Below, piece by piece: positions 10,091 through 26,561 of a stretch of 64,000 nucleotides of DNA (position 1 is its first letter; every line of letters starts with the position of its first letter). The notes below the pieces were generated by a model, which was given only the letters and a program-made list of their open reading frames with translations, did no database searches and was not told where the DNA came from. The position numbers and the translations under genes were made by a program. Origin of the DNA: Turicibacter faecis (GTDB lineage Bacteria; Bacillota_I; Bacilli_A; MOL361; Turicibacteraceae); NCBI RefSeq assembly GCF_037076425.1, contig NZ_AP028127.1, forward strand, positions 1,580,001 through 1,644,000. Reading direction: 5' to 3'.

Positions 10091-10103
10091 CTTAATCATC
10101 CCT

Positions 10104-10323
10104 AGATTGTGCGTATAGTGATTAGTTGTTGAATCCGAACATCTCTGATAAGGGAATCTGGCGTTCTAATATGGTGTTGAATGCTTAACCACTTCTTTGG
10201 TTAAGACTCCTAATATATTAGACAGGATACCCACCTGCTACCTTAGCGGGTTTTTATCCTAACACTTACGGCAATTTGGGCCCATTAAGTTAAGCACGAG
10301 AAATAATTCTCGTGCTTTTTTTA
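10104..10323 (+). ncRNA. ssrS: 6S-like RNA, copy 1 (with its terminator)
   Basis: A 6S RNA-type fold. The closing stem 10104-10120 pairs with 10263-10278 (AGATTGT, bulged G, CGTA, GTG against CAC, TACG, GCAATTT). An internal stem TCTAATAT/ATATTAGA encloses an apical hairpin CTTAACC/GGTTAAG. On the 3' side is the short hairpin ACCTGCTA/TTAGCGGGT that Gram-positive 6S RNAs carry beside the central bubble. The core is followed by an 11-bp terminator hairpin (10292-10312) and T7. Copy 2 shares the fold with compensatory changes. 6S RNA mimics an open promoter and binds sigma-A RNA polymerase (established). Location beside tcdA fits the B. subtilis 6S-1 locus. The promoter is weak, so expression of this copy is less sure. 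Confidence 0.78.
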
Positions 10324-10399: not shown

Positions 10400-10405
10400 T
10401 TAAAC

Positions 10406-10618
10406 AACATCTGAGGTATGCGTAAGGTGATTAGTTCTTTAAATCCGAACACTTCTGATAAGGGAATCCGATTCGCTAATACCGTGTTGAATGCCTAGCC
10501 TTTTCCGCCTAGGACTCCTAACGTATTAGATACGATGCCCACCTGCTAATTTAGCGGGTTTATATCCTAACACCTACGGTACTTCGGAGAAAACACAAGC
10601 CCCGGCTTGTGTTTTTAT
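10406..10618 (+). ncRNA. ssrS: 6S-like RNA, copy 2 (with its terminator)
   Basis: The second tandem copy, about 300 bases downstream of copy 1. The closing stem CTGAGGTAT, bulged G, CGTA, bulged A, GGTG (10411-10429) pairs with CACC, TACG, GTACTTCGG (10571-10587). The internal stem is CTAATAC/GTATTAG, the apical hairpin CCTAG/CTAGG, and the 3' bubble-side hairpin CCTGCTAA/TTAGCGGG. The sequence blocks CCGAACA, TCTGATAAGGGAATC, GTGTTGAATGC, ACTCCTAA, CCCACCTGCTA and TATCCTAACAC are shared with copy 1, while stems differ by paired changes, which is direct covariation evidence for structure. A terminator hairpin (ACACAAGC/GCTTGTGT) with a T run ends at about 10618. Its strong promoter suggests this is the main 6S gene. 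Confidence 0.83.
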
Positions 10619-23062: not shown

Positions 23063-24820
23063 CTATTTCTTCAACTGAATACGTAACTCATCTAGTTGTG
23101 CTTCAGAAACCACACCTGGTGCCTCCGTCATCGGACATGATGCAGATGCATTCTTAGGGAAGGCAATAACATCGCGTAAACTTTGAGAACCCGTTAAAAT
23201 CATCGCAATTCGATCAAGTCCTAATGCTAATCCCCCATGTGGTGGTGTTCCATATTTAAAGGCGTTCATTAAGAATCCAAATTGTTCCTCTGCCTCTTCC
23301 TCTGTAAATCCAAGTGCCTTAAACATACGCTCTTGAATGTCTTTTTGGTAAATACGCAGTGATCCTCCACCTAATTCATATCCATTTAAAACGATATCAT
23401 AAGCTTGAGCCTTTGCCTGATGACCATCTGTATCAAACGTCGCTAATGTATCCAGACTTGGCATCGTAAATGGATGATGTGCTGCAAAGAAACGACCAAG
23501 TTCCTCGTCATATTCAAATAGCGGCCAATCAATGACCCATAAGAAGTTAAATTTCGATTCATCAATTAAACCTAATTCTTTTCCTAAATGTAAACGAAGT
23601 GCTCCTAAACTATCAGCAACAACCGATTTTTTATCAGCGACAAATAATAACAGGTCTCCTGTTTCAGCTTGCGTCGTTTGTTTAATACGCTCGATTTCTT
23701 GTTCACTGAAGAACTTAGCGATTGGCCCGTTGAATCCCTCTTCAACAACTTTCATCCATGCTAAACCTTTTGCTTTATATTTTTTTACATAATCGGTTAA
23801 TTTATCAATGTCTTTACGTGAGAAACGATCCGCAGCCCCTTTGACACATAAAGCTTTAACTTCGTTTCCTGCCTCAATCGTTTGCGCAAAAACTGAAAAT
23901 CCGCAATTTGCCACTGCATCATTTAAAGCAATTAATTCCATTTCAAAACGTGTATCTGGTTTATCAGACCCAAAACGTCCCATTGCCTCTTCATAACTTA
24001 AGCGTGGGAATGGACGTGGAATATCTAAACCTTTCACATCCTTCATCATCTTGACTAGCATTTCTTCAATCATATTCATTATCTCTTCTTGCGTTAAGAA
24101 TGAGGTTTCAATGTCAATCTGCGTAAACTCAGGTTGACGATCCGCACGTAAATCCTCATCACGGAAGCAACGAGCAATCTGGTAATAACGTTCAAATCCA
24201 GATACCATTAATAACTGTTTAAAAATTTGTGGTGATTGTGGTAGCGCATAAAATTCCCCTTCGTGCACACGACTTGGTACTAAGTAATCACGCGCCCCCT
24301 CAGGAGTTGATTTATTTAAGTAAGGTGTTTCTACCTCAATAAAATCGTGTCCGTCTAAATAGCTACGAATTGATTTTAAAATATTGTGACGTAAAATAAA
24401 ATTTTTCTGCATAACAGGGCGTCTTAAATCTAAGTAACGATATTTTAAACGCGTATCTTCTAAAGCATCCGTTTCATCAGCAATAATTAACGGTGTCATT
24501 TCCGCCTCAGAAATAATCGTCAACTCATCTAAAACAACCTCAATATCTCCCGTCGGCATATTTGGATTTTTACTTTGACGCTCTGTAACCTCACCCTTAA
24601 CAGCAACAACATACTCATTACGTACCTTATTCGCAGCTTCCAACACCTCTGGTTTTGCTGTTTCTGGATTAACAACTAATTGTGTCATTCCATAACGGTC
24701 ACGTAAATCAATAAAAATAAGTCCACCTAAATTACGTGTTTTGGCAACCCATCCTTTTAATTCAACAATCTGGCCTACCTGTTCAATTCTTAATTCTCCG
24801 TTATTATGTGTTCGATTCAT
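23063..24820 (-). CDS. aspS: Aspartyl-tRNA synthetase
   Basis: A 585-residue bacterial-type class II synthetase. The N-terminal OB-fold anticodon domain ([30 protein letters not shown]) is followed by motif 2 ([21 protein letters not shown]), the bacterial GAD insertion domain at about 290-420, and motif 3 ([13 protein letters not shown]). It charges tRNA-Asp. Length is normal for the bacterial form. The gene follows hisS with 15 bases between and is the second gene of the operon controlled by the T-box leader. In B. subtilis the pair has the same order. Confidence 0.97.
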
Positions 24821-24835
24821 TTAATTCACCTCTTA

Positions 24836-26200
24836 CTAATGTTGACATCCGCAGCTTGAACCATTTCCATGGCCCCCACAACATTCATAATCCTCACCGT
24901 GTCCATGACCTCCACAGCAACCTGCGTGATTTTTCTGCTGATCTTCTAAAATATAATCAATAATTAAAGCAACCGGAATCGTTTGTTGTGTTCCCGTTTG
25001 ATTATTTTTTAGGTTAATCATTCCTTGTTGTAGTTCATCATCACCTAAAATCGCAGTATAACGAGCATGGTGACGATCTGCTTGTTTAAATTGTCCCTTT
25101 AAGTTTTTCCCTAGATAATCTGTTTCACAAATTAATCCGCGTGAACGTAAGTCTAATAATAAACGAGACCCAAACATTTTAGCATCTTCACCTAATGTTA
25201 TTAAGAAGAAATCTACTGCGTCATCACCGCCTACTTGAATTCCCTCGGCCTCTAAAGCAAGTAACAAGCGTTCTAACCCCATCCCAAATCCAATAGCTGG
25301 AACTGTTGGTCCACCAAGTTCGGCAACCAATTTATTATAACGCCCTCCTCCACACAATGTATTTTGAGCTCCAAATCCTTCAATATCAGCTTGAATTTCA
25401 AAAATGGTATGCGTGTAATAGTCAAATCCTCGAACTAGAGTCGCGTCGTATTCATAGTTAATTCCCATTGATTTTAAATATTGTTGCACCTTTAAGAAGT
25501 AGGCACGATCCTCTTCGACTAAATGATCGATTAATTGAGGTGCGGTTTTCATAATCTCCTTCTCACGGTCTACTTTACAATCTAAGACACGAAGGGGATT
25601 CTTCTCCAAACGAACTTGACAATCCGCGCATAATTCATTCTGGTGTCCCTCAAAGTGATTAAGGAGTGCCTGACGATAATTTTCACGGCTTTGGGTATCT
25701 CCTAGTGAGTTTAGTTTTACTTTAATATTTCGTAATCCTAATACTTTATACAACGTAACAGCCAATGAAATAACCTCAGCATCTAGTGCTGGATCCGCGC
25801 TTCCAAATACCTCTGTTCCGAACTGGACGTGTTGGCGATAGCGTCCCTTTTGTTGACGCTCGTAGCGGAACATTGGCGCAATATAAAATAGTTTTTGTAC
25901 CATTTGGTCTGCATATAACTTATTTTCGATATAACTACGTACAACGCCCGCTGTACCCTCAGGACGTAATGTCATCGAGCGATCACCACGATCTTTAAAA
26001 TCATAAGTTTCTTTTGAGACAACATCCGAAGTTTCTCCCGCTGAACGATGATAGAGACCGGTACTTTCAAACATCGGTGTACGGATTTCCTTATAATTGA
26101 AAATTGAACAAATTTCTCGGATAAGACTTTCGATATTTTGCCAACGTGCACTTTCTTTCGGTAAAACATCGTAAGTTCCCTTTGGTTTACTAAAGTTCAT
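24836..26200 (-). CDS. hisS: Histidyl-tRNA synthetase with Cys/His-rich C-terminal tail
   Basis: 454 residues, class II synthetase. PKGTYDVLP at the start, motif 1 region (IRTPMFESTGLYHRSAGETSD), motif 2 (MFRYERQQKGRYRQHVQFGTE), the histidine-binding LVRGFDYYTHTIFE, motif 3 (PAIGFGMGLERLLLALE) and a C-terminal anticodon domain. Normal HisRS ends near residue 425; this one adds a short extension with two C-C-G-G-H-G repeats and a final C-G-C-Q-H. In total it carries six Cys and four His in 28 residues, clearly a potential metal-binding tail. Start ATG follows AGGAAGGAG. It is the first gene after the T-box leader. Confidence 0.96.
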   Translation of the reverse strand: MNFSKPKGTYDVLPKESARWQNIESLIREICSIFNYKEIRTPMFESTGLYHRSAGETSDVVSKETYDFKDRGDRSMTLRPEGTAGVVRSYIENKLYADQMVQKLFYIAPMFRYERQQKGRYRQHVQFGTEVFGSADPALDAEVISLAVTLYKVLGLRNIKVKLNSLGDTQSRENYRQALLNHFEGHQNELCADCQVRLEKNPLRVLDCKVDREKEIMKTAPQLIDHLVEEDRAYFLKVQQYLKSMGINYEYDATLVRGFDYYTHTIFEIQADIEGFGAQNTLCGGGRYNKLVAELGGPTVPAIGFGMGLERLLLALEAEGIQVGGDDAVDFFLITLGEDAKMFGSRLLLDLRSRGLICETDYLGKNLKGQFKQADRHHARYTAILGDDELQQGMINLKNNQTGTQQTIPVALIIDYILEDQQKNHAGCCGGHGHGEDYECCGGHGNGSSCGCQH

Positions 26201-26271: not shown

Positions 26272-26526
26272 AAAAAAGCCCCTAGATAAAATTCTAAGGA
26301 CGTAATATACGCGGTACCACCTTAATTGCCATCGTCTATCAAACGACAACCACTTTCAAACGTTAACGCCGCCTACGGATATCTCTACTATAACATTCAA
26401 GATACCTTCTCACAAGTGTCTATCTATTATGTATTCGTCGAAGCTTCCAGCCTAGGCTTCGTTCTCTGTTACGACTTCCATTCTAGCCTCTCTTGATCAT
26501 TGAATTTATATTTATAGTTGACCATT
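26272..26526 (-). promoter_or_regulatory. T-box leader of hisS-aspS
   Basis: The minus strand carries the invariant T-box AAGGTGGTACCGCG at 26323-26310, followed by a terminator (CCTTAGA/TCTAGGG and T7, 26303-26272) that competes with it. Uncharged tRNA binding to this box opens downstream genes. Stem I lies in the first half of the leader. A candidate specifier stretch, GACAC at 26420-26416, contains both GAC (Asp) and CAC (His), which would suit an operon encoding both synthetases. Which triplet sits in the specifier loop needs folding. About 60 bases separate the terminator from hisS. Confidence 0.92.
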
Positions 26527-26532
26527 TTCTTT

Positions 26533-26561
26533 ATTATAATACATTTTCTTTTAAGATTCAA
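26533..26561 (-). promoter_or_regulatory. Promoter of the hisS T-box leader
   Basis: TTGAAT, a 17-base spacer and a perfect TATAAT on the minus strand. It overlaps the end of dtd and starts the leader near 26526. Confidence 0.75.

Follow-up and report, generated by a model that had tools for sequence, protein, structure and literature searches.

The window analysed here, a stretch of 64,000 nucleotides from Turicibacter faecis (NZ_AP028127.1, positions 1,580,001 to 1,644,000), carries hisS and aspS behind a single T-box leader. This leader contains the pentamer GACAC, in which an Asp codon (GAC) and a His codon (CAC) overlap. Does it respond to tRNA-Asp, to tRNA-His or to both? Both the GACAC motif and the idea that the two tRNAs are sensed together are already in print. 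GACAC in the specifier loop is given as characteristic of hisS-aspS T-boxes in an excerpt of PMC5313534, which credits Gutierrez-Preciado et al. 2009 with the suggestion that the motif interacts mainly with aspartyl-tRNA, the operon then being unresponsive to uncharged histidyl-tRNA. An excerpt of PMC4342826 ascribes to the same authors the suggestion that two alternative structures allow both tRNAs to be sensed. The S. aureus hisS-aspS element is called a histidine T-box in the relevant part of PMC7927825. As far as the excerpts of PMC5313534 and PMC4342826 go, the T-boxes of 2009 share operon and specifier-loop pentamer with the leader described here and do not differ from it in kind; the present material is a Turicibacter-like genome and its relatives.

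Architecture of the hisS-aspS leader

A search with the Rfam covariance model RF00230 matched the leader at 26509-26293 on the minus strand over its full length (model positions 1-219; 115 bits, E 1.1e-24), above the gathering score of 93. Stem I, T-box core and terminator were all matched, and no departure from the RF00230 T-box was found in the window's leader. The scan of the own genome gave 14 T-box matches, this leader included. Upstream on the same strand, a consensus scan found a promoter-like -35 hexamer TTGAAT (26556-26561) and -10 hexamer TATAAT (26533-26538), together 10 of 12 consensus bases with a spacer of 17 and sigma-70-like by sequence. The UGGU of the T-box bulge lies at 26319-26316 in the covariance model alignment, with U26316 opposite the tRNA discriminator base. 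It is followed by an intrinsic terminator able to compete with the antiterminator, a hairpin of 9 pairs (26301-26278) with a U tract at 26277-26271; hairpin and U run together fold at -11.9 kcal/mol (z -4.69).

Downstream on the minus strand lie hisS (24836-26200; histidine--tRNA ligase, 454 aa; TIGR00442, 490 bits) and aspS (23063-24820; aspartate--tRNA ligase, 585 aa; TIGR00459, 821 bits), both above the NCBIfam cut-offs. HisS shares 94% identity with its counterpart in Turicibacter sp. UBA7094.

GACAC is read at 26420-26416 on the minus strand. The preliminary description had located it in the specifier loop of a hisS-aspS T-box, with GAC and CAC overlapping by a two-base shift, and covariance model, gene calls and minus-strand sequence bear this out. 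The model aligns the pentamer to the specifier segment, with GAC (26420-26418) in the specifier position, followed by A26417 and then by the basal helix of stem I; it offers no other triplet, and a different specifier was rejected on this ground. The outcome that the preliminary description had named as its refutation, another triplet placed in the loop by the model, thus did not occur. GAC thereby matches the amino acid of aspS, the second gene of the operon. The overlapping CAC (26418-26416) reaches into the helix: both the model alignment and our helix finder pair CUUG (26416-26413) with CAAG (26495-26492), so that C26416, with which CAC ends, begins the basal helix and has G26492 as its partner. 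When the 100-nt stem I segment is folded by itself, its minimum-energy structure lacks this helix. GACAC as such is common in the window (69 observed, 55.4 expected, sd 6.9); it was nevertheless rejected as a chance pentamer, its position in the leader being conserved. The placement of GACAC, not its mere presence, carries the weight.

Specifier regions upstream of hisS in relatives

A T-box core with at most two mismatches was found within 1000 nt upstream of hisS in 71 of 118 loci, leaving 69 leaders after removal of two duplicates. For 14 of these the finder had misplaced the specifier or given none, and its position was assigned by eye. Another ten leaders linked to hisS were read, likewise by eye, from covariance model alignments, namely from ten of the twelve hisS-upstream stretches L358-L369; no T-box match was found in the other two (L365, L368), nor in the eight stretches L350-L357. 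The comparison set consists of close relatives from one class, with no named Bacillus leader among them. A gene for aspS follows within 500 nt of hisS in 62 of the 69 by tblastn. As for the other seven, genome coordinates place aspS next to hisS in four (L028, L029, L042, L160), aspS lies about 1.4 kb downstream in two (L074, L111), and L069 has a reading frame beside hisS that resembles aspartate--tRNA ligase, judged by eye from its likeness to aspS_nondisc proteins. In many relatives (L021, L049-L060, L069, L070, L073, L086 and others) an extra reading frame, acetyltransferase-like or nitroreductase-like by eye, stands between T-box and hisS.

The specifier regions of the 69 leaders read GACAC (59), GACAU (6), GACAA (3) and GGCAC (1); with the ten additional leaders the counts are GACAC 68, GACAU 6, GACAA 3, GACGC 1 and GGCAC 1 (n=79). 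The GGCAC leader, L063, belongs to one metagenome-assembled genome and has kept CAC upstream of hisS while losing GAC.

GAC is thus present in 68 of the 69 leaders, CAC in 60. These figures bear on the claim of the preliminary description that the T-box answers both tRNAs, for which a comparison of specifier loops had been proposed. In such a dual-specificity T-box, a two-base shift would offer GAC to tRNA-Asp or CAC to tRNA-His, and both synthetases would rise when the cell is starved of Asp or of His. The operon does encode both enzymes, GACAC stands in 59 of 69 hisS-linked leaders and L063 retains CAC alone; sensing of both tRNAs had been suggested for hisS-aspS in the excerpted PMC4342826, and overlapping codons have a precedent in C. 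acetobutylicum (part of PMC4052509). Yet the nine leaders without CAC retain hisS and aspS, aspS coming after hisS in all of them, so the second codon is not kept wherever both genes are controlled. On the HisS tree, presence or absence of CAC requires at least seven changes, which implies that CAC came or went repeatedly while hisS-aspS stayed.

The fifth base of the pentamer was compared with its predicted partner. The helix finder, which demands pairing but accepts G-U, put an A opposite the U in all six GACAU leaders. With a pairing-blind anchor set on AGUA, an A lay opposite in five of the six GACAU leaders, and opposite the C 24 rows had G, 8 had A and 5 had U (n=37); these counts are noisy because some rows are visibly mis-anchored (for example L018, in the promoter). 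The partners G and A were distributed differently between C and U rows (Fisher p 0.003, kinship ignored). A stricter anchor held 28 of the 69 leaders and no GACAU row. Judged from these alignments, the U-A pair of the GACAU leaders is a compensatory change, and the fifth base acts like part of a helix. A helix position for the C of CAC, filled by U-A in relatives, counts against dual sensing.

According to an excerpt of PMC7583486, a conserved purine comes 3' of the specifier, and sources of specificity besides the specifier are noted there as well. GAC satisfies this rule because A comes next. CAC breaks it, since CAC enters the helix by one base and is then followed by U. Of the 59 GACAC leaders, 50 have a U after CAC, 7 have a C and 2 have a purine, in both cases A. 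For a shift to CAC, no more than a single G-C pair would have to be given up. The conserved unit is GAC plus A plus helix, and CAC follows from that architecture.

CAC in T-boxes of other specificity and upstream of aspS

A CAC overlapping the specifier is not confined to histidine-related operons. Among ten other T-boxes of the own genome aligned by the covariance model, three have the form NNCAC (L002 CUCAC, L005 AACAC, L011 UUCAC). Helix finder and model mostly agreed on these ten; L009 was misplaced by the finder, and L006 and L010 differed. In another own-genome T-box, L007 (1693-1806, plus strand), a second T-box core about 100 bases past the first suggests a tandem or duplicated antiterminator.

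As a null set we used 114 T-boxes from the own genome and from relatives (100 of them), of which 67 were placed confidently, the window's own excluded. Thirty of these 67 have an NNC specifier, in 23 cases followed by A, and 15 of the 23 continue with C according to the helix finder. NNCAC was seen with specifiers for Leu, Asn, Phe, Tyr and Arg. NNC specifiers are thus followed by A and often then by a helix-opening C, so that CAC often comes with T-box architecture. CAC is still commoner in hisS-linked leaders (69/79) than in the other NNC-A T-boxes (15/23; p 0.026, kinship ignored).

The second comparison concerned aspS leaders without hisS. T-box matches were absent from 11 of the 20 aspS-upstream stretches searched, and the set comprises eight leaders, five from these stretches (L330-L333, L339) and three others (L090, L103, L117). 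L334-L337 (family f5) were excluded: their T-box core comes without a canonical stem I and instead with a conserved GAACAATCTGACAAATTGGGAG segment that has a GAC triplet near the core. The eight leaders carry GAC or GAU at the specifier place. CAC is rarer in them (3/8) than in hisS-linked leaders (69/79; p 0.003, kinship ignored). Taken at face value, the enrichment in both comparisons speaks for a dual T-box. However, GACAC heads aspS without hisS in L330, L331 and L332, where hisS is about 5 to 13 kb away, and the three aspS leaders with GACAU come from genomes that group as a single clade in the HisS tree, close to hisS-linked leaders with GACAU. The difference in CAC between hisS-linked and aspS-only leaders therefore looks at least partly phylogenetic.

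The two-codon T-box of C. acetobutylicum (Saad et al. 2013) likewise has overlapping codons in one specifier loop; as excerpted in PMC4052509, it reads tRNA-Asn and tRNA-Glu for a transamidation operon and was tested experimentally. Our leader shares with it a pair of overlapping codons, GAC and CAC in GACAC, whose tRNAs belong to the pathway under control. The second codon is, however, not limited to operons needing it, as NNCAC occurs with unrelated specifiers and upstream of aspS without hisS. In the T-box of Saad et al. the codon shift is reportedly one base; GACAC, unlike it, needs a shift of two bases that runs into the basal helix.

The tRNA probably read by the leader

Among the 69 hisS-linked leaders, 43 end the antiterminator UGGN in C and 26 in U; none has G or A there. 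In the own genome, tRNA-Asp has G73 in all five genes read and tRNA-His has C73 with G-1 in both genes. A C or U at this place suits tRNA-Asp and not tRNA-His, because C pairs and U wobbles with G73 and neither pairs with C73; the U of UGGU in the window is compatible with tRNA-Asp G73 by wobble. TBDB accepts a G-U wobble at UGGN and exempts His T-boxes from the discriminator rule.

These bases weigh against a T-box specific for histidine, in which CAC would be the true specifier and GAC incidental. Such a T-box would agree with hisS being the first gene, with the CAC of L063 and with the name given to the S. aureus element in the excerpt of PMC7927825. GAC is nevertheless better conserved than CAC (68/69 vs 60/69), the placement by the covariance model, the purine rule and UGGN all point to GAC, and aspS leaders without hisS carry GAC or GAU at the same place. 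We rejected CAC as the sole specifier on these grounds and consider a His-specific leader very improbable.

The G that would pair with C73 of tRNA-His is found in 0 of 69 UGGN motifs, which also counts against the dual-specificity T-box. With the CAC base in a helix, CAC absent from 9 of 69 leaders and UGGN suiting tRNA-Asp, the response to both tRNAs put forward in the preliminary description finds no support, and we regard it as unlikely. Were it true, a single RNA would link both synthetases to either of the two tRNAs. The comparative tests favour Asp alone. With good confidence, we interpret the leader as a T-box riboswitch of the canonical, transcription-attenuating kind, with uncharged tRNA-Asp sensed via GAC and hisS-aspS under its control, the CAC overlap probably being a by-product of the leader's folding. 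What is observed comprises the T-box match, the placement of GAC, the helix with its compensatory change, UGGU, the terminator, the operon order and the tRNA discriminator bases; from these we infer that the leader binds tRNA, that antitermination takes place in the cell and that hisS is co-regulated.

In the proposed mechanism, the GUC anticodon of uncharged tRNA-Asp would pair with the GAC specifier, and UGGU would bind the 3' end of the tRNA, G73-CCA, through pairs of which the last is a G-U wobble. The bound tRNA-Asp would hold the antiterminator and block the terminator at 26301-26278, and RNA polymerase would then read into hisS and aspS, with hisS co-regulated as a passenger. A variant in which this main response is joined by a weak response to tRNA-His, by opening of the C-G pair at the top of the basal helix, seems to us rather doubtful; it retains a small probability because CAC is enriched, L063 keeps CAC without GAC and the shift costs one G-C pair. 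Weak His sensing would imply that CAC is kept above background in hisS-linked leaders and that GACAU and GACAA lineages have lost the His response.

The tempting dual-specificity interpretation of GACAC is thus corrected by the comparison of leaders. A CAC overlap does not amount to dual specificity without tests of covariation and of the discriminator base, because the conserved A and the helix C often supply CAC free. The natural GACAU and GACAA leaders offer a ready comparison set.

Two observations concern other parts of the window. The C-terminus of HisS (24839-24925, minus strand) has a tail rich in Cys and His, CCGGHGHG...CCGGHGNGSSCGCQH, which may be a metal-binding extension; at least four Cys within the last 40 residues were found in 28 of the 118 HisS proteins of related loci. 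In addition, there are two tandem 6S RNA matches on the plus strand (10096-10286 and 10405-10594; 76 and 80 bits), about 120 bases apart.
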